Below, one piece after another: positions 1-38,858 of a stretch of 39,347 nt of DNA; the first letter of the stretch is position 1; each line of letters opens with the position of its first letter. Both the position numbers and the translations under genes were made by a program. The notes under the pieces were generated by a model. That model searched no databases. It saw only the letters and a list, made by a program, of their open reading frames with translations, and had not been told where the DNA came from. Origin of the DNA: Bacteroidales bacterium (GTDB lineage Bacteria; Bacteroidota; Bacteroidia; Bacteroidales; WCHB1-69); NCBI GenBank assembly GCA_017438945.1, contig JAFRUI010000001.1, positions 1-39,347 of the forward strand. Reading direction: 5' to 3'.

Positions 1-1059
1 CAAAACGGCATCTCTGTCACCAGCGTCGGATTGTCTAGCGGATCTTCCGCAACGGAGACCGTACTCCTCTGCGATGGTCTCCAGACCTCTCTCGTGTGGC
101 ACTCCGGCAGCTATGATTCAGAAGTTAGCTTTACCGTGGATGGCCCTGACGGCACTGAAGTGTACAGCGCTTCCAGCGTCTCTTCTGGCACGCTGACCAC
201 CTTCACGACCGACTGCGGCGGTTCCGGTCCTGTCATCACCGACCCGACTGTGGCCACCACCGCTGCCACCAGCATCACGCAGACGGGCGCCACGCTGAAC
301 GGTACCATCACCAATCCCGACAACGTGGCTATCACGGCCAAGGGCTTCGAGTGGAAGGCTACCGCAGGCGGCACCTACGCTCCTGTGACGGTGACGGGCA
401 ACAACCTCACCTACAACCTCACCGGTCTGACCGCCAACACGGGCTACACCTACAAGGCGTTCATCACCTTCAACGGAGAGACCGTCTATGGCAGTGAGAT
501 GACCTTCACGACCTTGCCTGAGGATGCTCCCGACCCGTGTGACGTGCCTACCAACCTGCACGCCACGGACATCCAGAACGAGTCCATCTCCATCACTTGG
601 AACACCAACGCCAACGTGAACAGCTGGAACGTTCAGTATCGTCCGGCAGCGGGCGGTCAGTGGACGCAGGTGACCGTCAACACCAACAGCTACACTATCA
701 CCAATCTCACCGGCAAGACCGACTACGAGATCCAGGTGCAGGCCAACTGCGGTGACGGCAACCTCAGTGACTGGAGTGCCTCCATCACGGTACAGACCAC
801 CGATGTGGGCATCGTGAACTACCTCGAAAACAGCATCACTTTGTTCCCGAACCCTGCCAACGACGTTGTCAATGTTCAAAGTTCAATGTTCCAGGTTCAA
901 TCCATTGAGGTGATCGATGTGTATGGTAAGGTGATCAACACGGTGAATGTGACGGATAATCCGGCCCGCATCAACGTCAGCGGTCTCGCCAACGGCATGT
1001 ATTTCGTGCGCGTGACCACCGACGAGGGCGTCGTGACGAAGACCTTCATCAAGAGATAA
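1..1059 (+). CDS. T9SS-secreted fibronectin-type protein, 5' end missing
   Basis: The reading frame is open from base 1, so the gene starts outside the window; 352 residues are visible. Two fibronectin-III-like domains can be seen, roughly residues 80-175 (starting near TVATTAATSITQTGATLNG) and 180-270 (PTNLHATDIQNESISITW). A type A T9SS C-terminal sorting domain follows from about residue 281 (LFPNPANDVVNV) to the final KTFIKR, the usual length of about 70 residues. Such proteins are exported by Sec, cross the outer membrane through the Por/T9SS machinery and are released or anchored on the cell surface. The N-terminal catalytic or binding part is not visible, so substrate and role are unknown. 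The sorting domain contains a 4x7-nt tandem repeat (874-901), and another repeat begins at the stop codon. A strong terminator follows. Confidence 0.85.
   Translation, partial: QNGISVTSVGLSSGSSATETVLLCDGLQTSLVWHSGSYDSEVSFTVDGPDGTEVYSASSVSSGTLTTFTTDCGGSGPVITDPTVATTAATSITQTGATLNGTITNPDNVAITAKGFEWKATAGGTYAPVTVTGNNLTYNLTGLTANTGYTYKAFITFNGETVYGSEMTFTTLPEDAPDPCDVPTNLHATDIQNESISITWNTNANVNSWNVQYRPAAGGQWTQVTVNTNSYTITNLTGKTDYEIQVQANCGDGNLSDWSASITVQTTDVGIVNYLENSITLFPNPANDVVNVQSSMFQVQSIEVIDVYGKVINTVNVTDNPARINVSGLANGMYFVRVTTDEGVVTKTFIKR
874..901 (+). repeat. In-frame 4x7-nt tandem repeat inside the sorting domain
   Basis: Four consecutive 7-mers, GTTCAAA, GTTCAAT, GTTCCAG and GTTCAAT, encode the VQSSMFQVQS stretch of the T9SS sorting domain. 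The unit length matches the intergenic repeats elsewhere in the window. Confidence 0.8.
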
Positions 1060-1090
1060 TTCATAATTCATAATGCATAATGCATAATTA
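1056..1090 (+). repeat. CATAAT-type tandem repeat after the stop codon
   Basis: Tandem copies of TTCATAA and TGCATAA (7-nt period) begin at the stop codon of the T9SS protein. A nearly identical tract lies at 32609-32640. Confidence 0.75.
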
Positions 1091-11483: not shown

Positions 11484-11558
11484 GGCGGTTGTAGCTCAGT
11501 TGGTTAGAGTACCGGATTGTGGTTCCGTGGGTCGTCGGTTCGAATCCGACCTGCCGCC
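11484..11558 (+). tRNA. tRNA-His (anticodon GTG)
   Basis: The cloverleaf can be laid out by hand: acceptor GCGGTTG, D-arm GCTC...GAGT, anticodon loop TTGTGGT with anticodon GTG, and T-arm GTCGG-TTCGAAT-CCGAC. G at position -1 (11484) faces C73 (11558), the identity feature of histidine tRNA. CCA is not encoded. Two pairs are broken: U6-U67 in the acceptor stem and C27-U43 at the base of the anticodon stem; U5-G68 and G10-U25 are wobbles. It has its own promoter and a strong terminator, so it is probably expressed. Confidence 0.92.
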
Positions 11559-14246: not shown

Positions 14247-14741
14247 ATGAACAACAGATATCCTTTGACAATTTTTCACGATAACAGACCGGTGGTCGTA
14301 CGTGATGAGGCGGAATGGACACGTTTCTCGCAGGATTTCCGCATCATACATGCTGCCGGCGGCATCGTTTCCAATGAAAAGGACGATGTTTTGATGATTT
14401 TCCGGTATGGATGCTGGGATTTCCCCAAAGGTAAAGTCGAAGAGGGCGAAGACTGTGAAACGGCGGCTCTGAGAGAGGTGGAGGAGGAAACGGGATTGCA
14501 AGACATCGCCCTGCAAGAGCCTCTCCCGAACACGTATCACACTTACATTCTGCACGACACCCCCATCTTGAAAATCACCCACTGGTACGCCATGCAGGCT
14601 CCGATGCAGTCGCTTGTCCCGCAAACCGAGGAGGACATCAGCCAAGCCGTCTGGGTGCCGCGAGAGGAGGTGGCGGAAAGGCTGCATGACTCGTATTTAT
14701 CGCTGCGGGAGCTGTGGGGACAGTTAGCAGTTAGTAGTTAG
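14247..14741 (+). CDS. NUDIX hydrolase
   Basis: The 164-residue cytoplasmic protein carries a complete Nudix box at residues 62-84: GKVEEGEDCETAAL followed by REVEEETGL, with the metal-binding REVEEE core intact. NUDIX enzymes hydrolyse nucleoside diphosphates linked to another moiety; the sequence does not reveal the substrate. The N-terminal 60 residues include DNRPVVVRDEAEW, and the sheet preceding the box contains AAGGIVSN and VLMIFRYGCWDFPKG. The last five residues, LAVSS, and the stop codon are encoded by a tandem-repeat tract identical over 25 nt to the one at the end of uvrA. The natural C-terminus was probably near RELWGQL. It lies just before an exported hydrolase gene, 22 nt apart. 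Confidence 0.9.
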   Translation: MNNRYPLTIFHDNRPVVVRDEAEWTRFSQDFRIIHAAGGIVSNEKDDVLMIFRYGCWDFPKGKVEEGEDCETAALREVEEETGLQDIALQEPLPNTYHTYILHDTPILKITHWYAMQAPMQSLVPQTEEDISQAVWVPREEVAERLHDSYLSLRELWGQLAVSS

Positions 14742-14763
14742 TAGTTAGTAGTTAGTAGTTGTT
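14722..14763 (+). repeat. TTAGTAG heptamer tandem repeat over the NUDIX gene end
   Basis: Four to five copies of the 7-nt unit TTAGTAG start inside the NUDIX coding sequence, include its TAG stop and continue to the next start codon. The first 25 nt are identical to the reverse complement of 35779-35803. Confidence 0.9.
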
Positions 14764-17910: not shown

Positions 17911-20454
17911 ATGAAGAAATTCCTACTACTGACGGTTTTGGCCCTTTTCTGTTGCGGCAGTGTTTTCGCCCAAGAGAACAAGACGGACAAAAAAGGCAAG
18001 AAAAAACAGAAAACAGAGGTGGTGAACGACGGCGAGAGTCCGGCGGAAAACACACCCGTGGTGAACGAGGACTCGGACGACGACGACCTCGACAGCGGCG
18101 GCGGGCAGTATGTTCCGAGTTTGCTCCATAGCAGCCAGGATGTCTATACCAACAACACCTCCTACACGTTCAGCATTGCCTACTTCCGGATGCGCGGTTA
18201 CGACAACCGCTACCAGGGCGTGTTCGCCAACGGTTTCGAAATGAACAACATGGTGACGGGACGTGCCAATTTCTCGCAATGGGGCGGGTTGAACCATATC
18301 TTCCGCTATCCGGAGAATGTCAGCGGGTTGAACATGGCGACCTTCGATTTCGGTGATATCGGCGGGTGCAGCAACTACAATTTGCGGGCCAGCAACTTCC
18401 GCAAGCAAGTGCGCGCCACCTACTCACTGTCGAACCGCACCTACACCAACCGTTTGATGCTTACGGGCAGCACCGGGCTCACCGCCAAAGGCTGGGCCAT
18501 CACCGGTTCCTTGTCGGCGCGTTTCGGCAATGAACTGGCATACGTGGACGGAACCTCATACACCGGTTTCGCGGGTTTCGTGGCTGCCGAGAAAAAAATC
18601 AACTCCCAACACTGGCTCAATCTCGCGGCATTCGCCTCCTACATCCAGCGCGGCATGCAGTCCAACTCTGTGCAGGAGGCCTACGACCTGCTTGGCAACA
18701 ACTACTACAACGCCAACTGGGGTTGGTATCAGGGCAAACAGCGCAATGCCCGCGTGCGCACGCAATGCGAACCCACCTTCCTGTTGACCCACAACTTCAA
18801 CTCCGCAAACAACAAGGTCAACATTCAGACCACCGCAGGACTCTCTTTCGGTTTCAACAACACCACTTCTCTCAACTGGTACGATGCCCAGGACCCAAGA
18901 CCGGACTACTACCGCTATCTCCCGAGCTACCAGATTGACGGCACGGACACCACACAAGCATACTATGATGTGCTTGCGCTGTGGCAGAACAACGACCAAA
19001 GCTACACCCAGATCAACTGGGACCATCTCTATACCGTCAACCAGACAGCCGCGCTGCAAGGCAAACGTGCCCAGTACATGGTGGAGAACCGTCGTTACGA
19101 CCAGCTGACGGGCGGAATCAGCACCAATCTGAACTGGTCCATCAACGAGCATTGGAAGCTCTATGCCGGTGCCTCCGTGAACCATTTCAAACAGCACAAC
19201 TACAAGACCATCGAAGATCTTTTAGGCGGTGCATATTGGCTTGACGTCGACAAGTTCTCCGAAGGAGACTTCCCGGCAGACCAGAACGTGCAGTACAACG
19301 ACCTGCTCCATATCGGCGACACACTCCACGAGGGCGATGTTTTCGGCTACGACTATGACTACCAAGTCTTCAAACAAAAAGTATGGGGCATGGTGAAGGC
19401 CACATACAATCATTGGGACTTCTATTTCGGTCTTCAGTTCGGTGCCTCGGAGCTGTGGCGCGAAGGACACATGCAGAACGGCCGCTTCCCCGACAATTCC
19501 TACGGCCGGTCGGAGACGCGAATTTATATGGACAACGGCGCGAGAGCCGGTGTCACCTACAAAATCAACGGTCGTAACTACATTGTCCTCAACGGTTTGG
19601 GAGAAACCAAGTCTCCGAACATCCTCAACTCGTTCCTTTCGCCTCGTATCAACAACAAATTCGTTGACAACCTGACCTACGAGACCATCTTCTCCGGTGA
19701 CCTTTCCTACGTGCTCAACTATCCGGTCATCAAGTTGCGGGCGACGGTCTTCGGCACGAAAATCAACAATTCCACGCGACTGATCAGCTTCTACAACGAC
19801 GACATGTCGAGTATGGTCAACTACGCCATCTCGGGCATCGATGAGTTGCATGTTGGCGTGGAAGCCGGAACGGAGATCAAACTGGGCAGCATGTTCTCGC
19901 TGATCTTGGCGGGCACCTGGGCCGACTATCGCTACACCGACCGCGCCCACGTGACGATGAACGCCGAGAACGGTGTCGATTTCGACGGGCAGGTGGAACG
20001 CACGGTCTATTGGAAGAACTACCACGTGGCCGGCACCCCGCAAGTGGCCGCCACCGGAGGCCTGAAGTTCAACTACAACTATTGGTGGGTGAACATCAAC
20101 TGCAACTGGTTCGACAAGATTTATTGCGACCTGAACCCCGAGCGCAGAACCTCCACTGCCCGCGGCTCTTTGGACCAAGATTCCGAACTCTACCATTTAA
20201 TAGCTGACCAGACCCGCATGAAAGGGCAGTTCACGATGGACGTCTCTGTGAGCAAGTCGTGGCGCATCAAGCACAAATACAACATCGGCTTCAACGCCAG
20301 CGTCACCAATTTGCTGAACAACAAAAAGTTAGTAACCACCGCGTGGGAGCAGTACCGTTTCGACTACACCAACTACAACGTCAACAAATACGCTAACAAA
20401 TACTACTACGCTTTCGGTACAACGTTCTATTTGGGTATTAATTTCCAGATGTAG
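17911..20454 (+). CDS. TonB-dependent receptor of the DUF5689-lipoprotein system
   Basis: The 847-residue protein has a signal peptide (MKKFLLLTVLALFCCGSVFA). A Lys-rich then acidic linker follows (KKGKKKQK ... DSDDDDLDSGGG), and a plug-like domain starts near residue 65 (FRMRGYDNRYQGVFANGFEM, then FDFGDIGGCSNYNLRASN). The rest is barrel, ending in FGTTFYLGINFQM. The usual CarboxypepD_reg domain is missing. It sits directly before two lipoproteins with DUF5689-like OB folds, an arrangement I recognise from other Bacteroidota; the cargo is not known. The frame runs back to 17872, but that start lies in the promoter hairpin and gives no signal peptide, so ATG 17911 is used. It is separated from the first lipoprotein by 73 nt of repeats. 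Confidence 0.85.
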   Translation: MKKFLLLTVLALFCCGSVFAQENKTDKKGKKKQKTEVVNDGESPAENTPVVNEDSDDDDLDSGGGQYVPSLLHSSQDVYTNNTSYTFSIAYFRMRGYDNRYQGVFANGFEMNNMVTGRANFSQWGGLNHIFRYPENVSGLNMATFDFGDIGGCSNYNLRASNFRKQVRATYSLSNRTYTNRLMLTGSTGLTAKGWAITGSLSARFGNELAYVDGTSYTGFAGFVAAEKKINSQHWLNLAAFASYIQRGMQSNSVQEAYDLLGNNYYNANWGWYQGKQRNARVRTQCEPTFLLTHNFNSANNKVNIQTTAGLSFGFNNTTSLNWYDAQDPRPDYYRYLPSYQIDGTDTTQAYYDVLALWQNNDQSYTQINWDHLYTVNQTAALQGKRAQYMVENRRYDQLTGGISTNLNWSINEHWKLYAGASVNHFKQHNYKTIEDLLGGAYWLDVDKFSEGDFPADQNVQYNDLLHIGDTLHEGDVFGYDYDYQVFKQKVWGMVKATYNHWDFYFGLQFGASELWREGHMQNGRFPDNSYGRSETRIYMDNGARAGVTYKINGRNYIVLNGLGETKSPNILNSFLSPRINNKFVDNLTYETIFSGDLSYVLNYPVIKLRATVFGTKINNSTRLISFYNDDMSSMVNYAISGIDELHVGVEAGTEIKLGSMFSLILAGTWADYRYTDRAHVTMNAENGVDFDGQVERTVYWKNYHVAGTPQVAATGGLKFNYNYWWVNINCNWFDKIYCDLNPERRTSTARGSLDQDSELYHLIADQTRMKGQFTMDVSVSKSWRIKHKYNIGFNASVTNLLNNKKLVTTAWEQYRFDYTNYNVNKYANKYYYAFGTTFYLGINFQM

Positions 20455-20520
20455 GCGATGAAGGAACGATGAATGAAAGATGAATGAAAGATGAATATAC
20501 GATGAATAAAAGATGAATTT
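20455..20520 (+). repeat. GATGAAT-containing tandem repeat
   Basis: Five spaced copies of GATGAAT, two of them in an 11-nt unit, fill the space between the receptor and the lipoprotein gene. The last copy supplies a spurious in-frame ATG at 20513 upstream of the true start. Confidence 0.75.
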
Positions 20521-25728: not shown

Positions 25729-25760
25729 AAGCAGATCGTCCCATCCGGATCGACCTGCTT
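25729..25760 (-). terminator. Terminator between convergent genes
   Basis: AAGCAGATCG and CGACCTGCTT form a 10-bp stem with one G-T pair and a 12-nt loop. On the minus strand it is followed by six T, so it fits termination of nhaD; it may also act weakly on the plus-strand gene ending at 25709. Confidence 0.75.
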
Positions 25761-25785
25761 AATTCTTAATTCTGAATTCTTAATT
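25761..25785. repeat. AATTCTTAATT-type short repeat
   Basis: AATTCTTAATT occurs twice around TCTG, just past the nhaD stop codon. It resembles the other short repeats at gene ends. Confidence 0.55.
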
Positions 25786-28056: not shown

Positions 28057-28998
28057 ATGTCAAGAAACGTCAAATGTCTCATCATCGGTTCCGGTCCCGC
28101 AGGTTACATGGCCGGCGTATATACGGCACGTGCCGACCTGAAACCCCTTCTCATCGAGGGCATGCAGCAGGGCGGTCAGCTGACCATCACCAACGAAGTG
28201 GAGAATTTCCCGGGATTTCCGGGCGGTGCGGGCGGTCCGGTCATCATGGACAAGCTGCGTGAGCAAGCACTGAAACTGGGCGTGGAGATGCAGCCCAAAA
28301 GCGTCGCGAAGGTCGATTTCAGTAGCCGGCCGTTCCACTGCCAACTGGATGATGGTGAGGAGATTATCGCGGAGACGGTCATCGTGGCCACGGGCGCAAG
28401 CGCACGTTGGCTGCACCTGCCCGGCGAGGACGAGTTCCGCGGCTTCGGGGTCTCCACCTGCGCCACCTGCGACGGCAACTTCTTCCGCAACAAGACCACC
28501 GTGGTCATCGGCGGCGGCGACACCGCGCTAGAGGACGCCCTCTACCTGTCGCAGCTCTGCACGAAAGTCTATATCATGCACCGCCGCGACCAGTTCCGGG
28601 GCACCGTCGCGCTGCAGAAGAGCGTGTTAGCCACCCCGAACATCGAGGTTGTGTGGAGCCACGTGCCCGTGGAGATCACCGGCGAGCAGAAAGGGTTCAT
28701 CAAGAAGGTGACGGGTCTGAAGGTGAAGCATGCGCAAACTGGCGAGGAACGCACCTTGGCGGTCGATGGCGTGTTCGAAGCCATCGGTGTGGTGCCGACC
28801 ACCGAACTTTTTGTGGGACAGTTGGACATGAACGAGCAGGGCTATCTCGTCACGAAGCCCGACAGCACGAAGACCAACGTCGAGGGCGTGTTCGCAGCCG
28901 GCGACGTGCAGGACCCCGTCTTCCGCCAGGCCGTCATCGCCGCAGGAACGGGCAGCATGGCGGGCATCGAGGCGTCGCGGTTCTTGATGGAGAATTAG
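28057..28998 (+). CDS. trxB: Thioredoxin reductase (NADPH)
   Basis: The 313-residue flavoprotein transfers electrons from NADPH through FAD and an active-site disulfide to thioredoxin in the cytoplasm. It shows the N-terminal FAD motif (IGSGPAGYMAGVYTARADL), the redox-active CATC within GVSTCATCDGNFF, the NADPH motif (VVIGGGDTALEDALYLS) and the second FAD motif (GVFAAGDVQDPVFRQAVIAA). Length matches low-molecular-weight bacterial TrxB. No thioredoxin gene lies beside it; the thioredoxin-like proteins at 2218-4191 are exported and so not its direct partners. It is a single gene, divergent from the nhaD unit. Confidence 0.97.
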   Translation: MSRNVKCLIIGSGPAGYMAGVYTARADLKPLLIEGMQQGGQLTITNEVENFPGFPGGAGGPVIMDKLREQALKLGVEMQPKSVAKVDFSSRPFHCQLDDGEEIIAETVIVATGASARWLHLPGEDEFRGFGVSTCATCDGNFFRNKTTVVIGGGDTALEDALYLSQLCTKVYIMHRRDQFRGTVALQKSVLATPNIEVVWSHVPVEITGEQKGFIKKVTGLKVKHAQTGEERTLAVDGVFEAIGVVPTTELFVGQLDMNEQGYLVTKPDSTKTNVEGVFAAGDVQDPVFRQAVIAAGTGSMAGIEASRFLMEN

Positions 28999-29027
28999 GG
29001 AACCAACGGCGTCCCGCAGTTGAAATG

Positions 29028-29055
29028 CTGAATTATGAATGCTGAATGCTGAATA
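29028..29055 (+). repeat. TGAATGC heptamer repeat
   Basis: Copies of the 7-nt unit TGAATGC follow the end of trxB (GAATTATGAATGCTGAATGC). Confidence 0.75.
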
Positions 29056-29111: not shown

Positions 29112-29119
29112 TATCTTTG
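29112..29119 (+). promoter_or_regulatory. -7 promoter box for sufB
   Basis: TATCTTTG followed by CCGCC is a full TAnnTTTG match. The resulting leader of about 120 nt would contain two heptamer repeat tracts. Confidence 0.65.
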
Positions 29120-29135: not shown

Positions 29136-29180
29136 GACGTAAGACGTAAGACGTAAGACGTTAGACGTTAGACGTTAGAC
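29136..29180 (+). repeat. GACGTAA/GACGTTA heptamer repeat
   Basis: Six consecutive 7-nt units, three GACGTAA then three GACGTTA, lie in the presumed sufB leader. There are no spacers between units. Confidence 0.92.
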
Positions 29181-29214
29181 AAAAGATGTGGGATTTCTGA
29201 CGCGACCACAAAAC

Positions 29215-29242
29215 CTGATCACTATTCACTGATCACTGATCA
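29215..29242 (+). repeat. ACTGATC heptamer repeat
   Basis: TGATCACTATTC followed by copies of the 7-nt unit ACTGATC ends 7 nt before the sufB ATG. Confidence 0.8.
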
Positions 29243-29249
29243 CAAAAAA

Positions 29250-30705
<1,456 letters not shown>

Positions 30706-30707
<2 letters not shown>

Positions 30708-30741
30708 TGTAGAATGTAGAATGTAGAATGCAGAATGATGA
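30706..30741 (+). repeat. ATGTAGA heptamer repeat between sufB and next gene
   Basis: Three ATGTAGA-like 7-nt units and variants (GCAGAAT, GATGAAT) begin in the sufB stop codon and run into the ATG codons of the gene at 30735. Confidence 0.88.
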
Positions 30742-31662: not shown

Positions 31663-31705
31663 GCGTATGCGATATGTTTCTACGGCGTATGCGATACGCC
31701 TCTAC
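31663..31705 (+). repeat. Two direct copies of a 21-nt palindromic sequence
   Basis: GCGTATGCGATATGTTTCTAC (31663-31683) and a copy with three changes (31685-31705) are spaced one base apart. Each contains the imperfect palindrome GCGTATGCGATACGC. Confidence 0.75.
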
Positions 31706-31714
31706 ATTGAATCC

Positions 31715-31728
31715 TGAAACTTGAAACT
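31715..31728 (+). repeat. TGAAACT heptamer pair
   Basis: Two adjacent copies of TGAAACT lie just before the kinase-acetyltransferase fusion gene; the second contains the TTG that opens a false upstream start at 31721. Confidence 0.65.
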
Positions 31729-31738
31729 AAAAACCACC

Positions 31739-32626
31739 ATGTACATAACCGACTACATCACCGGAACTGTCATCCAAGGACTCGGAAACGGGCACAAGTT
31801 CGGTTTCCCAACCGCCAACGTGCAGCCCGACACGCCCGTCACGCTGGAGAAGGGAGCTTACGCCACATGGGTGAAATACGACGGGAAACGCCACAAGGGG
31901 ATGCTCTACGTGGGCACGCGCCCGACGCTGAACCTTCACGAGCTCACCTACGAAATCCACGTCATCGACGCCAGCCCCAGACTTTACGGCAAAAAGATTG
32001 CGTTCAAGCCGGTTTACAAGATAGCGGAGGAGAAAAAATTCAAGAGCCAGAAAGAACTGGCCAATGCTCTTGATGATTATAAGCTGACGGCCAAATCCTT
32101 GCTGACTCCAAGCCATTCTCACGTTTTAAACCCGAGATTGGACGACATCAACGACATCATGAAAATCATCGGACAGGCGAAGCGCAGGATGAAGGAACGC
32201 GGCCTCGACCAGTGGCAGGACGGCTATCCCAACGAGGAGGCCGTACGCAACGACAAAAGGAAACATCAAGGGCATTATTTCCGCAAATGTATGGAACCTG
32301 CCGCCTACGCCGCCATCGTGTTTGACAAAGACCCCTATTACGAAAAAATTGACGGGAAATGGCTCAGTGACGGTGAGCCCTACGTTGTCGTGCACCGTCT
32401 CGCCGTCGCCGACGAATTCCTTGGTCTCGACCTCGCCAAGCACGTTCTCAGATTCGCGGAACGGAAAGCCCGTGCCAAGGGCGTAAGATGGTTCCGCATC
32501 GACACCCACCACGACAACCTCCCGATGCGCAACCTCATCCGCGACTTCGGGTTCACCCTCTGCGGCGTGGTGCAGGTAAGGGACGGGAAGAGGATGGCGT
32601 ATGAGAAGATAATTCATAATGCATAA
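31739..32626 (+). CDS. Riboflavin kinase-GNAT acetyltransferase fusion
   Basis: The 295-residue protein joins two domains. Residues 1-118 are a riboflavin kinase domain, which makes FMN from riboflavin and ATP: GTVIQGLGNGHKFGFPTANV carries the PTAN Mg-ATP motif, KGMLYVGTRPT follows, and E72 in YEIHVID is the expected catalytic Glu. Residues 131-290 are a GNAT N-acetyltransferase: MKERGLDQWQDGYPNEE, VVVHRLAVADEFLGLDLAKH, RIDTHHDNLPMRNLIRDFGF and CGVVQVRDGKRMAYEK. The FAD synthetase domain that normally precedes riboflavin kinase in RibF is absent. The acetyl-CoA loop FLGLDLA departs from the usual R/QxxGxG/A. The last residues IIHNA and the stop come from a repeat tract. ATG 31739 is chosen over TTG 31721. 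Confidence 0.85.
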   Translation: MYITDYITGTVIQGLGNGHKFGFPTANVQPDTPVTLEKGAYATWVKYDGKRHKGMLYVGTRPTLNLHELTYEIHVIDASPRLYGKKIAFKPVYKIAEEKKFKSQKELANALDDYKLTAKSLLTPSHSHVLNPRLDDINDIMKIIGQAKRRMKERGLDQWQDGYPNEEAVRNDKRKHQGHYFRKCMEPAAYAAIVFDKDPYYEKIDGKWLSDGEPYVVVHRLAVADEFLGLDLAKHVLRFAERKARAKGVRWFRIDTHHDNLPMRNLIRDFGFTLCGVVQVRDGKRMAYEKIIHNA

Positions 32627-32651
32627 TGCATAATTAAGAATTATGAATGTT
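32609..32651 (+). repeat. CATAATG heptamer repeat joining two genes
   Basis: CATAATG units begin inside the fusion gene, supply its stop codon and end in AAGAATTATGAATG, which provides the start ATG of the LRR gene. It is nearly the same as 1056-1090. Confidence 0.88.
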
Positions 32652-33281
32652 ATGGGCAGAAGAGGTCTATTTTTCATTTTAATAATGACTGTTTTTTGTA
32701 CTAGCGTTTTTGCGCAGAAGACGACTCTGCTTTACGCGCCTGATGATGACGGGAAGGTCTTCACATCGATTGAGGAGGCATTGAAGGCGGAGAGTCCTGT
32801 CTATCGGTTGAAAATCACCAAGTTGGCTAATAAGGATTCGTTGCCGGAAGAGTTGTTCCGGCTCACGGAGTTGCGCGAGCTCACCGTGAAGGGGTGCAAA
32901 CTCTGCCGGTTGAATCAGAATATCGGCAAACTGACGAAGTTGCAGTACCTCAATGTTGACCACAACAAGTTGTTGCGGCTGCCCGAAACGATAGGCGCGC
33001 TCAGAGACCTGCGCACGCTCGTCATTTCCCGCAACATCCTCGAGGAGCTACCCGAGAGCATCGGGAACCTGCACCAGCTCGTCACCATCGACGCATGGGG
33101 GAATCCGCTTTATGTACTCCCCCACTCCATCAGCGATATTAGCAACACATTGAAAATATTGGACTTACGGCAGATCCCGCTTACAAAATGGGAATACGAA
33201 GCCATGGAGCAACTTCTTCCTAAAACTGACATCCAGTTCACGAATATCTGCGAGTGCGAGAACAGGAGGGATCATGATTAA
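32643..33281 (+). CDS. Exported leucine-rich repeat protein
   Basis: The 212-residue protein has a signal peptide (MGRRGLFFILIMTVFCTSVF, ending AQ) and about five leucine-rich repeats between residues 65 and 175: LPEELFRLTELRELTVKGC, IGKLTKLQYLNVDHNKLLRL, IGALRDLRTLVISRN, IGNLHQLVTIDAWGNPLYVL and a degenerate last repeat. They are of the type with LPxxIxxLxxLxxLxxxxN. LRRs mediate protein binding; the partner is unknown. It ends CECENRRDHD with no sorting domain, so it is probably periplasmic. The ATG at 32643 lies in a repeat; ATG 32652 would serve as well. The last codons and TAA lie inside the left arm of a long terminator hairpin. Confidence 0.8.
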   Translation: MNVMGRRGLFFILIMTVFCTSVFAQKTTLLYAPDDDGKVFTSIEEALKAESPVYRLKITKLANKDSLPEELFRLTELRELTVKGCKLCRLNQNIGKLTKLQYLNVDHNKLLRLPETIGALRDLRTLVISRNILEELPESIGNLHQLVTIDAWGNPLYVLPHSISDISNTLKILDLRQIPLTKWEYEAMEQLLPKTDIQFTNICECENRRDHD

Positions 33282-33327
33282 AAAAGAAAACGCGGCCGAA
33301 TGACCGCGTTTTCTTTTTTAATCATGA
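33272..33327. terminator. Bidirectional terminator with 24-bp perfect stem
   Basis: Bases 33272-33295 pair perfectly with 33304-33327 around an 8-nt loop. T-runs in both directions make it suitable for ending both the LRR gene (plus) and argF (minus). The LRR stop codon (33279-33281) lies within the stem. Confidence 0.92.
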
Positions 33328-33336
33328 CCCGATGGA

Positions 33337-34338
33337 TTAGTCGCCGAGGGTGGCCACCATCACAGCCTTGATCGTGTGCATACGGTTTTCAGCCTCGTCG
33401 AAGACGATGGAGTTCTCGGATTCGAAAACGTCCTCGGTAACTTCGATGCCGTCCAGACCGAATTGTTTGTGCACGTCGCGGCCAACCTGTGTTTCGAGGT
33501 TGTGGTAAGCGGGCAGGCAGTGCATGAACTTGCATTTCGGGTTGCCGGTAAGAGCCATCGTCTCTTTATTGACCTGATAAGGTTTGAGCAGTTTGATACG
33601 CTCAGCCCACACTTCGACGGGTTCACCCATGGAGACCCAAACGTCGGTGTAGAGGAAGTCGCAGCCCTTGACGCCCTTCTTGACATCGTCGGTGACGGTC
33701 ACCTTGGCGCCGGTCTTTTTAGCGATTTCCTGACATTGTTTCACGAGGGCTTTGTCGGGTTGCAGGGCCTTGGGAGCCACGATGCGGACATCCATTCCCA
33801 TCTTCGCGCCGCCGACCATCAGGGAGTTACCCATGTTGAAGCGGGCATCGCCGAGGTAAGCGTAAGTGACTTGGTTCAGGGGTTTGTCAACATGCTCGCT
33901 CATGGTGAGGAAGTCGGCGAGGACCTGCGTGGGGTGGAATTCGTTGGTGAGGCCGTTCCAGACGGGAACACCGGCGTATTCAGCCAGTTTCTCGACGGTT
34001 GCCTGGGCGAAGCCACGGTATTCGATGCCGTCGAACATGCGTCCGAGTACGCGGGCGGTGTCTTCCATAGACTCCTTCACGCCGATCTGGGAACCGGTGG
34101 GTCCGAGGTAGGTGACATGTGCGCCTTGGTCGTAAGCAGCCACTTCGAAAGCGCAACGGGTACGGGTGGAGGTCTTCTCAAAAATCAAGGCAATATTCTT
34201 GCCTTTCAGACGAGGTTGTTCCGTGCCGGCGTATTTCGCGCGTTTGAGGTCGCGGGCCAAGTCAAGCATGAATTGGATTTCCGTCGGAGTGAAGTCCAAC
34301 AGTTTCAGGAAGCTTCTGTTTCTTAAATTGAATGCCAT
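33337..34338 (-). CDS. argF: Ornithine carbamoyltransferase
   Basis: The 333-residue protein transfers the carbamoyl group of carbamoyl phosphate to ornithine, giving citrulline, in arginine synthesis or, in the reverse direction, arginine deiminase catabolism. All diagnostic motifs are present: STRTR (carbamoyl-phosphate site), the [13 protein letters not shown] segment, and HCLP in [10 protein letters not shown] (ornithine site). The N-terminus [20 protein letters not shown] and [20 protein letters not shown] are close to E. coli ArgI/ArgF and ArcB. No other arginine gene is nearby, so direction of use is unclear. ATG 34338 is used; the longer frame to 34383 would include the promoter. A minus-strand TATCTTTG box lies 42 nt upstream. 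Confidence 0.95.
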
Positions 34339-35078: not shown

Positions 35079-35693
35079 ATGATGAACGACATCACTCATA
35101 TCGCATTGGACATGGGCGGCGTGGTACTCCACATCGACCATGAGCAGGCCGTGACGCGTTTCGAGGAGATCGGAGTTTCCAACGCCCGCGAATTCCTCAA
35201 CCCCTACCACCAGCAGGGGATTTTCGGACAATTGGAAGGCGGGCAAATCTCGGCAGAGACATTCGTCGAAGAACTCAGCCGCCTCATTGGCAAGCCGCTC
35301 ACGCACGAGCAGTGCCTCTATGCGTGGCTCGGTTACCTCAAGGAGATTCCACAGCGCAATCTCGACACTATCCGACGACTTCGCGAAAAAGGCTATCGTG
35401 TCTGCCTGCTCTCCAACACCAACCCCTTCTTCTTCGAATGGGCCGAAAGCGGTGCTTTCGACAGCCACGGCCACCCTATCCGCGACTACTTCGACGCACT
35501 CTACGTCAGCTTTCAATGCAAACTGCTGAAACCATCGAGGGAAATTTACGAACACGTGCTGCGCAGCGAAGGCATACGTCCCGAACAACTGCTCTTCATC
35601 GACGACAGCGAGCGCAACACCGAAGCCGCCGCCGCGTTGGGCATCCGAACAATGCACGTGGAAACAAACGCGGACTGGACCTTGTTAATGTAG
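35079..35693 (+). CDS. HAD-superfamily hydrolase (YihX-like)
   Basis: The 204-residue cytoplasmic protein carries the four HAD motifs. Motif I is ALDMGGVVL, with the nucleophile Asp and Gly at the +2 position as in YihX-type members. Motif II is LLSNTN, motif III is the Lys in QCKLLKPSREIY, and motif IV is FIDDSERN. The cap is a small helical one inserted after motif I. YihX of E. coli is a sugar-phosphate phosphatase; the substrate here is not shown by sequence. The stop codon is provided by the first unit of a heptamer repeat. ATG 35082 is an alternative start. Confidence 0.9.
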   Translation: MMNDITHIALDMGGVVLHIDHEQAVTRFEEIGVSNAREFLNPYHQQGIFGQLEGGQISAETFVEELSRLIGKPLTHEQCLYAWLGYLKEIPQRNLDTIRRLREKGYRVCLLSNTNPFFFEWAESGAFDSHGHPIRDYFDALYVSFQCKLLKPSREIYEHVLRSEGIRPEQLLFIDDSERNTEAAAALGIRTMHVETNADWTLLM

Positions 35694-35732
35694 AATGATG
35701 AATGATGAATGCAGAATGTAGAATGTAGAATA
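35686..35732 (+). repeat. ATGTAGA/ATGATGA heptamer repeat after the HAD gene
   Basis: Six 7-nt units (variants of AATGTAG, AATGATG and AATGCAG) begin in the last codons of the HAD gene and include its TAG stop. They are the same type as 30706-30741. Confidence 0.88.
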
Positions 35733-35778: not shown

Positions 35779-35803
35779 AACTACTAACTACTAACTGCTA
35801 ACT
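35779..35803 (-). repeat. TTAGTAG heptamer repeat over the uvrA gene end
   Basis: On the minus strand this is identical over all 25 nt to 14722-14746. It encodes the final LAVSS and the stop codon of UvrA. Confidence 0.92.
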
Positions 35804-38621
35804 TATCTCGCAGCCATTCCGCCGTATAAGAACCCTTACATTTCACCAACTCTTCCGGAGTACCTTCAAACACGATGTTGCCGCCGGCGTCGCCACCCTC
35901 GGGACCGAGGTCGATGATCCAGTCGGCACACTTGATGAGCTCCGTGTTGTGCTCGATGACCAAAACCGTGTTGCCGTGCTCGATCAGCCGGTTGAAGGCG
36001 TCGTAGAGTTTGTGGATGTCGTGGAAATGAAGACCTGTGGTTGGCTCGTCGAAGATGAAGAGCTTGCGCTGCTTGTCATCGTCCTGCGCTAAGAAGTTGG
36101 CCAATTTCACGCGCTGCGCCTCACCGCCCGACAAGGTCGAGGACGGCTGTCCCAGCACCAGGTACTCCAACCCCACATCTTTTAACGGCTGCAAACGGCG
36201 CAAAATATTTGCTGTGATATCATTGGGTGTCAGACTGTTGAAGAAGTCCAACGCCTCGTTTACCGTCATGTTCAGGATATCGTTGATATCCTTGCCGGAA
36301 ACCTTGATGTCCAGAGCGTCGTCGCGGAAACGTTTGCCCTGACACGACGGGCAGACCATCTCCACATCGGCCATGAACTGCATGTTGATATGGATGATGC
36401 CCTCGCCTTCACACTCCTCGCAGCGGCCGCCCGCCACGTTGAAGGAGAAAAAGCCCGCCTTGTAATTGCGCTGCTTGGACAACGGCTGAGCTGCGTAAAG
36501 GTCACGAATATAGTCGAAAATCTTGAGGTAAGTAGCAGGATTGGATCGCGAGGAACGCCCGATGGCATCCTGATCGACCATCACCACGCCGTTGACCTTG
36601 GTCATGTCGCCCGACACGCCGCCGCAACGACCCGGCCTCGGCACATTGGCATCGCCCAAGAGCCGTGCCACAGACGGATAGACAACGTCTGTCACCAGAG
36701 AGCTCTTGCCCGATCCGCTCACGCCGGTCACCACCGTGAAACATTCCAACGGAATCTTCACGCTGATGTTCTTGAGGTTGTGCTCGCGAGCATTCTGCAC
36801 CTCGATATAGTTGCGCCATTTCCGGCGGTATTTCGGCAACGGGATGCGCATCACGTCTTTACCGTCGACACTCGGTACCATACCCCGCAAATAGCTGGCT
36901 GTCAGATTCTTTTTCTGCGACAACAACTTGTCGAACGTGCCAGAGAAGACCACCTCGCCGCCAAACTGCCCGGCCATGGGACCGATATCGACAATGTAGT
37001 CGGCAGCTTTGATGATGGCTTCGTCGTGCTCGACCACAACCACCGTGTTGCCGATGTCGCGCAACCGTTTCAGCACGTTGATAAGGTTCTGGGTGTCTCG
37101 GGGATGCAGTCCGATACTCGGTTCGTCAAGGATGTAGAGGGACCCCACGAGACTGCTGCCCAGCGAGGTAGCCAGGTTAATGCGCTGTGACTCACCGCCT
37201 GACAATGTGGAACAGTTGCGGTCCAAGGTCAGGTATCCGAGTCCCACCTCGTCCAACAGTCCGATACGGGTGGTCAGCTCGCGCATCAGAATCTTGGCGA
37301 TTTCTTTTTCATTATCGTTTTGATATTCAAAGTTTTCGAAGTATTTCTTCAGTTCTGAAACCGGCATGTTCTGCAATTCGGCGATGGACTTGCCGTTGAC
37401 CTTCACGTACTGTGCATCCTTGCGCAAGCGCGTGCCGTGGCATTCGGGACAGAGTTCGCGCCCGCGATAGCGCGCCTGCATCACCCGAAACTGGATCTTG
37501 TAAGTGTTCGCAGCCACAAAATCGAAAAACTGCGTGATACCATGCACATCATGCTTCACATCGCCGTACCAAAGCAGGTTGTACTCCTCTTCGGTAAGGT
37601 CATCAATGGCGCGATAAACGGGGAAATCGAGTTTGGAGGCATAGCGGATGAAATGGCGTTTCCACTCGCTCATGATTTCGCCGTGCCAGCAGGCCACCGC
37701 ATCCTCCGCCACCGACAACGAGCGGTCGGGGAAGACCAGATCGGGGTTCACGCCCTCCACCATGCCCGTGCCGGAACAAGTCTTGCACGCCCCGTAAGGG
37801 TTGTTGAAGCTGAACATGTTCACCGTCGGTTCCTCAAACGTCATGCCGTCGGCTTCGAAAAAGTTGCTGAACGACTTCAACTCGCTCTTTTCCCCTTCGC
37901 GGAGCACCGCACACACGCCCTTTCCTTCCGAAAAAGCCACGTTCACGGCATCCGTCACGCGAGTCTGCTGCGCCGCCAAATTGTCGGACTTGAAACGGTC
38001 CACCATCACATACAGTTTCTTCGGATCGGGTTCCTTTTCGAACTTGATAACATCATCGATTTCAAATAGTTGCCGGTCATACACCATTCTGTTGAAGCCC
38101 TGCTGCCGGAGAATCAGCAGCTGGTCGCCGACGGAACGCCCTTCGGGAATCACCATGGGGGCAAGCACATAAACGCGCTCACCTTCAGGGGTTTGCATGA
38201 TGAAACGCAACACATCCTTCACGTCGTGGCGTTTCACCTCCTGTCCGCTCACCGGCGAAAAGGTGTGGCCGATGCGGGCGAAGAGAAGCTTCAGGTATTC
38301 GTAAATTTCCGTCACGGTGCCCACGGTCGATCGGGGGTTCCGCGACAGGATCTGCTGCTCAATAGCGATGGCCGGCGGGATGCCCGTGATGGACTTCACC
38401 TCGGGCTTTTTCATGCGTCCCATGAACTGGCGGGCATACGAGCTGAGGCTCTCCACATAGCGCCGCTGCCCCTCCGCATAGAGCGTATCGAAAGCTAACG
38501 AAGACTTTCCAGAGCCGGACAATCCCGTGATTACTACGAACTTATTGCGCGGAATATCCAAATCGATATTCTTCAGGTTGTTGACCTTCGCGCCACGTAT
38601 GGAAATTTTTTTCTCTTTCAT
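35784..38621 (-). CDS. uvrA: Excinuclease ABC subunit A
   Basis: The 945-residue ABC ATPase recognises damaged DNA and loads UvrB in nucleotide excision repair. Two nucleotide-binding domains are seen: Walker A motifs GLSGSGKSS (residues 33-41) and GVSGSGKSS, with two LSGGE signatures ([20 protein letters not shown] and [20 protein letters not shown]). The C-terminal zinc finger is complete ([11 protein letters not shown] ... CPSCQGKRF). In the insertion-domain finger only the second CxxC (ACKTCSGTG) is present; FFEADGM stands where E. coli has the first. The last five residues, LAVSS, derive from a repeat tract, so the ancestral end was probably near RDKL. The frame extends to 38765, but ATG 38621 matches the family start ([20 protein letters not shown]). 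Confidence 0.97.
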
Positions 38622-38633
38622 AATTTGAGGGCG

Positions 38634-38641
38634 CGAAAATA
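38634..38641 (-). promoter_or_regulatory. Probable -7 box for uvrA
   Basis: On the minus strand TATTTTCG, one base off TAnnTTTG, lies 12 nt before the uvrA ATG. The leader would be very short. Confidence 0.4.
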
Positions 38642-38858
38642 CGATTTTTTTTGTGACTAGTGAAAGGTATTCAAGGAACAAAATGACTTCTCCTTCATCC
38701 AACACTTTCCCTTTCACGAATAAAAAACAAAATTCATGAACTTTCTCCGATTTTCCGCGAAACAAATATTTTATTTTAACTATTAATTATCAAATAATTT
38801 TCAATAAAATTCAACAAACTGTTGATTCACAGCTAAAAACAAAAATTTTCAAAACCTC
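38642..38858. other. AT-rich divergent intergenic region
   Basis: About 215 bases between uvrA and the Rpn-family gene. It is markedly AT-rich with A- and T-tracts and AATTATCAAATAATTTTC-like sequence. The uvrA frame is open through part of it, but no plausible start or conserved protein is seen. I see no RNA gene here. Confidence 0.5.

Follow-up and report, generated by a model that had tools for sequence, protein, structure and literature searches.

Our preferred reading of the heptanucleotide repeats in this Bacteroidales bacterium, to which we assign a probability of about 0.45, involves two layers: arrays with a 7-nt step arise and change length at gene ends, and some unit families would then be kept by selection as recognition sites. 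Most likely, the arrays were made by slippage at gene ends and one family, GGTTATN, has turned into a selected element. GGTTATN itself is a defined dispersed element of fixed length and with fixed ends. Many short repeats with a 7-nt step, of a known kind, occur in the intergenic gaps of this bacterium and its relatives. Why seven is a favoured step in bacterial tandem repeats is an old open question, and the genus supplies dozens of genomes in which arrays can be tracked locus by locus; GGTTATN, in turn, is clearly under constraint and has a built-in control, a nearly free base at each seventh position. With these genomes and this internal control, slippage origin and signal use are therefore separately testable.

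Distribution of the heptanucleotide arrays

The window, that is, the whole 39,347-nt stretch of DNA analysed, is contig 16 of an assembly (1.86 Mb, 44 contigs, 63% complete) whose nearest named relatives are uncultured Bacteroidales, including RUG312, a yak omasum genome and an SRR12081301 bin. Genes were called with our own simple codon-usage script, with which individual start sites may be off, and arrays were detected with Tandem Repeats Finder (TRF). An earlier note had claimed period-7 repeats at eleven places and an 11-nt unit at one more. TRF returned a period-7 row at each of the eleven, found period 11 in the window only at 20457-20518, and added one array at 25758-25785:

869-901, plus strand: 7/14-nt array of the TTCAAAG/TCAATGT type (TRF, gene calls), inside called gene 1-1059; the sole clear coding exception
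1056-1089, plus strand: 7-nt array ATAATTC/CATAATG (TRF), overlapping the end of gene 1-1059
14722-14760, plus strand: 7-nt array TTAGTAG (TRF), across the stop of gene 14247-14741, with its end 3 nt short of gene 14764
20457-20518, plus strand: 11-nt array GATGAATGAAA (TRF, gene calls), between gene 17911-20454 and gene 20513
25758-25785, plus strand: 7-nt array CTTAATT (TRF) in a convergent spacer, also in G013; missing from the earlier list
29024-29054, plus strand: 7-nt array TGAATGC of the GAATGNN family (TRF); one unit fewer in G013
29112-29119, plus strand: promoter-like TATCTTTG (from the sequence), present also in G013, G009 and RUG312
29136-29180, plus strand: 7-nt array of three GACGTAA then three GACGTTA (TRF, sequence); 2+6 in G013
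29215-29243, plus strand: TCACTNN (T[GA][AT]TCAC) array (TRF, sequence), ahead of six A and the sufB start codon (29250); G013 has it in identical form
29250-30707, plus strand: sufB (NCBIfam, above the curated cut-off), the downstream gene of the central spacer
30706-30737, plus strand: 7-nt array AATGTAG of the GAATGNN family (TRF) at the stop of sufB; shorter by one unit in G013
31707-31728, plus strand: weak 7-nt array CCTGAAA (TRF) where gene 31721 starts; longer by one unit in G013
32609-32634, plus strand: 7-nt array CATAATG (TRF) over the stop of gene 31721-32626
35687-35731, plus strand: 7-nt array GAATGNN (TRF) from the stop of gene 35079-35693 onward; G013 lacks it
35779-35803, plus strand: 7-nt array AACTACT (TRF, gene calls) over the stop end of the minus-strand uvrA gene 35784-38765

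The claim that all arrays but one lie between genes stands in that only 869-901 is well inside a gene, but several others overlap a gene's last bases. No Rfam family covers any of the window arrays, the sole Rfam match in the window being a tRNA gene at 11485-11558. The window also holds a 22-nt tandem repeat, GCGTATGCGATACGCCTCTACG, at 31663-31705, whose motif recurs in other spacers of this genome and of relatives (for example L028 2008-2045 and L245). Dispersed intergenic pieces, all hairpin-like (CCCCTTCTTTTTAAGAAGGGGTGCCCGAAGGGCGGGGTAGTA, GAGCAGCCCCGNNGGGGCAAGAGCTCGGTAG and GTAGAGACGTTTCATGAAACGTCTCTAC), recur beside heptad arrays at L028 452-664, at L037 497-616, and in the window spacer 33281-33337 and its counterparts in relatives.

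To measure the period excess, we took 20 stretches of this genome that exclude the window (399,168 bp, 60,274 of them intergenic), counted exact lag-p runs of at least 9 bases with p from 3 to 30, and used the mean of 10 segment-wise dinucleotide shuffles as control. Period 7 gave 75 intergenic runs (60 kb) and 11 coding runs (339 kb), against 0.9 and 0.9 in the shuffles, at a density that is possibly biased upward since the stretches sit on contigs known from array matches. The next intergenic period below 14 is 8, a minor peak with 16 intergenic and 2 coding runs; period 12 is coding-heavy (11 and 18), period 5 is empty (0 and 0), and periods 14, 21, 24 and 28 are also raised. A smaller intergenic peak is visible at periods 8, 16 and 24.

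Congeners show the same preference in runs of at least 10 bases (two tiny contigs, L187 and L188, omitted): intergenic and coding counts are 90 and 6 in G020, 43 and 2 in G013, and 23 and 3 in G029, all from contig-start samples not picked via array matches, and 57 and 4 in 20 loci of the genus, 3 of which also belong to those three sets. Both the sharp period-7 peak and the rarity inside genes on which the claim of the earlier note depended are thus borne out. Seven of nine further genomes (eight from other families of the order plus G033 of the genus, 360 kb in total) have no period-7 run. In 80 loci around sufB from varied Bacteroidota, 74 runs have period 7, compared with 10 of period 6, 13 of period 8 and 29 of period 9, and 21 of the 74 come from three loci of the own genus. 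These counts indicate a patchy distribution that is not limited to the genus.

Arrays also concentrate at gene ends. Spacers of at least 60 bp in four genomes hold 176 arrays, and 83 of these are no more than 10 nt away from a gene end, where 34 would be expected (s.d. 4.9); 59 are near stops against 19 expected, in agreement with the clustering at stop codons noted earlier, and 25 near starts against 15.

Turnover of arrays between relatives

The central spacer of the window, flanked by the thioredoxin-reductase gene trxB (28057-28998) and sufB, illustrates how arrays change. Before sufB the order is TATCTTTG, which we take to resemble the Bacteroidetes promoter consensus TAnnTTTG, then the GACGTAA/GACGTTA array, the TCACTNN array, six A and the start codon; unlike the prevailing stop-adjacency, the TCACTNN array sits just upstream of a start. 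In G013, whose sufB is 97% identical, the spacer has 2+6 instead of 3+3 GACGTAA/GACGTTA units and one TGAATGC unit less, and its TCACTNN array is the same. In RUG312 the promoter-like site is retained, followed by different heptamers (TGACTTA, later CTAAACC and TTGAACC); G035 retains a TCACTNN-like array, and G022 has none. This spacer is comparable in eight of the 23 relatives' loci (in nine the genes are more than 1,500 bp apart and six are without a trxB match). The same spacer of G023 (L055) carries a long array with a 9-nt step, of the CACCCCATT type, where the own genome has 7-nt arrays.

Between spacers of the own genome and G013 that align at more than 75% identity, in a set mixing pattern-fetched own loci (L201-L250) with unbiased stretches, 11 of 46 gaps in or near arrays measure 7 or 14 nt (nine and two, respectively), against 7 of 123 gaps elsewhere in the same spacers (five and two). 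Presence was scored in 62 orthologous spacers with a mean flank identity of 90%: arrays occur in both genomes in 16, in the own genome only in 5, in G013 only in 9 and in neither in 32. Loci that hold an array in one genome thus tend to hold one in the other (odds ratio 11, P = 7e-5), in a test biased by own loci that were fetched for holding arrays. At some loci one unit family replaces another family of the relative, as at L034 18454-18605, where ATAATTC units in one genome correspond to AGACTTN-type units in the other.

The comparison with relatives that the earlier note had proposed therefore shows copy number shifting by 7-nt steps and arrays gained, lost or replaced between species. Whole-heptad changes and turnover are observed; slippage as their cause is what we infer. 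Decayed remnants of old arrays were considered and rejected: after masking the detected runs, the intergenic match rate at lag 7 (0.278) is not above those at lags 6 (0.282) and 8 (0.279).

Recurrent units and the GGTTATN element

The unit sequence had been described as free, a view that the counts do not support. In the sample of the own genome, 72 intergenic arrays use 36 distinct units, whereas 500 GC-matched random draws average 65 and never fall below 57, and some families combine fixed bases with one or two free ones. The broader proposal of a fixed length, free sequence and copying of local DNA is consistent with the 7-nt steps between relatives, but not with units that recur, nor with GGTTATN, which is dispersed with fixed length and ends.

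For the array before sufB, a TCACTNN 21-mer has 21 matches in the own genome when up to two mismatches are allowed, whereas its reversal has 0. By our count 23 of the 26 mismatches among these matches, some shared by overlapping matches, sit in the two free positions. In lenient chains, whose admission via a core-holding consensus somewhat favours the core columns, GGTTATN has constant columns at 95–100% and a free one at 53%, GAATGNN has constant columns at 90–100% and free ones at 36% and 61%, and TCACTNN is less sharp (87–99%, with 59% and 47%). The chains of TAATTNN and CATAATN present no such contrast, and departures within arrays hit their core columns too.

A single consensus for all units was rejected, the enrichment being modest (TAA occurs in 39 of 79 units, where 24.1 would be expected), and clustering of units at two mismatches was discarded because it merged unlike families. 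G056, from another family of the order, has TCACTTG/TCACTCG arrays and variable-length GGTTATC arrays mixed with GATAACT and GACAACT units (L271-L280), that is, the same cores outside the own family; the reversed-pattern control of that search is void, since the letters of TCACT read alike both ways.

The GGTTATN element reads TAAT-(GGTTATN)3-GGTTAT-TGAAG, with TAAT- and -TGAAG as common ends. It is found elsewhere in the genome and not in the window. The pattern has 105 matches in the own genome (up to three mismatches, overlapping registers counted) against two for the reversed control. An exact three-heptad pattern occurs in 20 of 36 genomes of the genus, with 2 to about 200 matches, and in 1 of 24 other genomes, so that the element is plentiful in some members of the genus and nearly missing from the others. 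Its length hardly varies: 44 of 52 chains of at least three heptads have four, 7 have three and 1 has eight; in a second count, which allowed one mismatch per heptad and included pattern-fetched loci, 70 of 90 have four. The GGTTATC arrays of G056 were taken as a separate occurrence, since their copy number varies and the ten loci viewed lack the TAAT...TGAAG ends.

The element is also polar. In 47 of 59 elements the TAAT end is no more than 15 nt from a gene (29 at a start, 18 at a stop), while the opposite TGAAG end is that close in 3 of 57. Of 54 elements, 47 stand in same-direction spacers, which make up 514 of 755 (P = 0.0012). Elements at starts and at stops are oppositely oriented, which a simple mRNA signal would not explain; the two orientations speak for a DNA-level or two-way role.

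Conservation was compared in 15 of 19 orthologous pairs, leaving aside four of unequal unit number and the last N of each element. While the adjoining flanks are 91% identical, 13 of 45 N bases differ and only 2 of 360 core bases do; this core constancy is an upper estimate, because pairs with a decayed core escape the pattern search and 3 of the 15 pairs come from one locus. That six of seven bases stay nearly unchanged hints at a real function for GGTTATN; its absence from part of the genus means that it is not essential. No match was returned by Rfam for the 17 scanned loci among the 30 GGTTATN loci L221-L250. A hairpin between GGTTAT and ATAACC of one spacer was rejected, with 0 opposite-orientation pairs within 400 bp among 59 matches. 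RRM (Rbp) proteins were likewise rejected as array readers: PF00076 is found in 0 of 36 genomes of the genus, the own one included, and in 16 of 24 other genomes of the order.

Origin, possible role and known systems

Mechanistically, arrays would be generated and resized in short gene-end DNA, most likely via replication slippage, and selection would then retain some families as evenly spaced recognition sites, leaving some bases of the heptad fixed and others free. GGTTATN, the clearest case, is best read as a DNA or RNA site in which a putative factor would make four contacts, spaced 7 nt apart, with the six-base core; the TCACTNN array before sufB could represent a similar but looser family, a suggestion we make with less weight. 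We count in favour of the two-layer reading the intergenic period-7 peak, the 7- and 14-nt indels, the recurrent units and the TCACTNN mismatches in free positions, together with the four heptads, gene-adjacent TAAT end, preference for same-direction spacers and constant core of GGTTATN. Against it we count TAATTNN and CATAATN without a fixed/free contrast, the exclusion of RRM readers, the opposite GGTTATN orientations, the overstated core constancy, the three of 15 pairs from one locus, the patchiness of GGTTATN in the genus and family replacement. A bolder version, possible but doubtful in our view, makes GGTTATN an intercistronic signal of part of the genus, with four six-base contacts for a putative factor, a free seventh base and fixed polarity relative to stop or start codon, and makes the other heptad families, such as TCACTNN before sufB, swappable dialects that keep the pitch.

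Slippage alone, by a replication machine that slips by 7 nt everywhere while selection purges the genes and the arrays remain functionless, would explain the period-7 peak with whole-unit indels, the scarcity of arrays in coding sequence, their replacement at one place and the broad length spread of TAATTGA and GAATG chains; an origin in polymerase contacts is credited to Mrazek 2007 in the part of MacGregor 2015 (PMC4679880) compared here. We regard it as rather unlikely to be the whole story, as it leaves unexplained the recurrence of units and the excess at gene ends, and also why GGTTATN keeps to four units, with fixed ends, a polarity and a constant core. Alternatively, GGTTATN and similar families might be copies of a short mobile or REP-like element, spread and kept alike by transposition or ectopic copying and not by selection. 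About a hundred pattern matches with common ends in one genome, and a distribution that is abundant in part of the genus and near zero elsewhere in it, would suit such an element, but orthologous copies persist between species with differing N bases and the same core, and uniform copying would not spare each seventh base. We consider this origin improbable.

Selection for stops in all three frames, obtained from a 7-nt step and a stop triplet, would account for arrays at stop codons and for the 69 of 79 distinct units that carry a stop triplet on either strand, compared with 60 ± 3 in letter permutations and 51 ± 4 in GC-matched intergenic 7-mers. Yet the bias towards the sense strand is weak: among 130 arrays more than 3 nt from a stop, 51 have such triplets on the sense strand only and 32 on the antisense strand only (28 and 22 of 81 by distinct units). 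Moreover, where GGTTATN follows stop codons it holds no sense-strand stop, and of the stop-free pairs in GAATGNN, CA is rare (4 against 12.2 expected) but AA is not (14 against 11.9). As the sole reason it was rejected on this weak strand bias despite some enrichment, and we hold the explanation very unlikely. A two-tier G-quadruplex seems remoter still: GGTTATN does offer exactly four evenly spaced GG runs, and quadruplex-forming G-rich heptamers are reported from Xanthomonas and Nostoc in the part of PMC4692102 compared, but the intervening TTAT is as constant as GG and needless for a quadruplex, and the other heptad families are not G-rich.

The arrays can be set beside known systems. STRR are repeats of filamentous cyanobacteria, and Paludibacter is a member of Bacteroidales. 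In Haemophilus influenzae, 7-bp promoter repeats of high copy number reportedly tune hmwA expression by phase variation. As there, a heptanucleotide array can stand upstream of a gene here, although with mostly 3–6 units. By their period-7 excess, mostly extragenic position and whole-unit copy-number variation, the present arrays are heptanucleotide simple-sequence repeats of the LSSR/STRR kind. Heptanucleotides are the commonest repeat class in most genomes (Mrazek 2007, via the part of PMC4679880 compared), and the arrays share with those LSSR and with STRR the predominance of period 7 and the intergenic position; both are general repeat classes, and a fixed-length element with a free seventh base is not described in the material compared. 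SARP regulators are reported to bind heptameric direct repeats.

The statement in the earlier note that Bacteroidales have no equivalent description was too strong. Intergenic TAACTGA direct repeats are described, in the part of MacGregor 2015 (PMC4679880) compared, from marine Beggiatoaceae, some Cyanobacteria and five Bacteroidetes including Paludibacter propionicigenes, some of the five carrying other heptamer repeats as well; TAACTGA is also reported in Thiomargarita, in the excerpt of PMC4853749 compared. A literature search for heptamer repeats in Bacteroidetes or Bacteroidales gave nothing further beyond MacGregor 2015; searches with literal array strings returned no paper on repeats by title, and no description of the GGTTATN element was found within the literature searched.

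The GGGAATC and GGGGA(C/T)T repeats of Xanthomonas and Nostoc (PMC4692102, in part) are likewise intergenic heptamers with variable positions, many lying between the same genes in two related organisms while length and sequence vary, as here; those repeats are G-rich, of variable copy number and quadruplex-forming, whereas the present families are mostly not G-rich. TAACTGA itself is not among the 60 most frequent of our 79 units, among which TCACTGA, one base off, is present (as ACTGATC) and stands before sufB. Like the TAACTGA repeats in the same part of PMC4679880, the present arrays are short intergenic heptamer arrays, often near a start codon, and differ between strains by 7-nt increments. 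In the TAACTGA system, however, one unit dominates and its one-base variants are rarely repeated, while here many families coexist, with degenerate positions and with one fixed four-unit form that has polarity.
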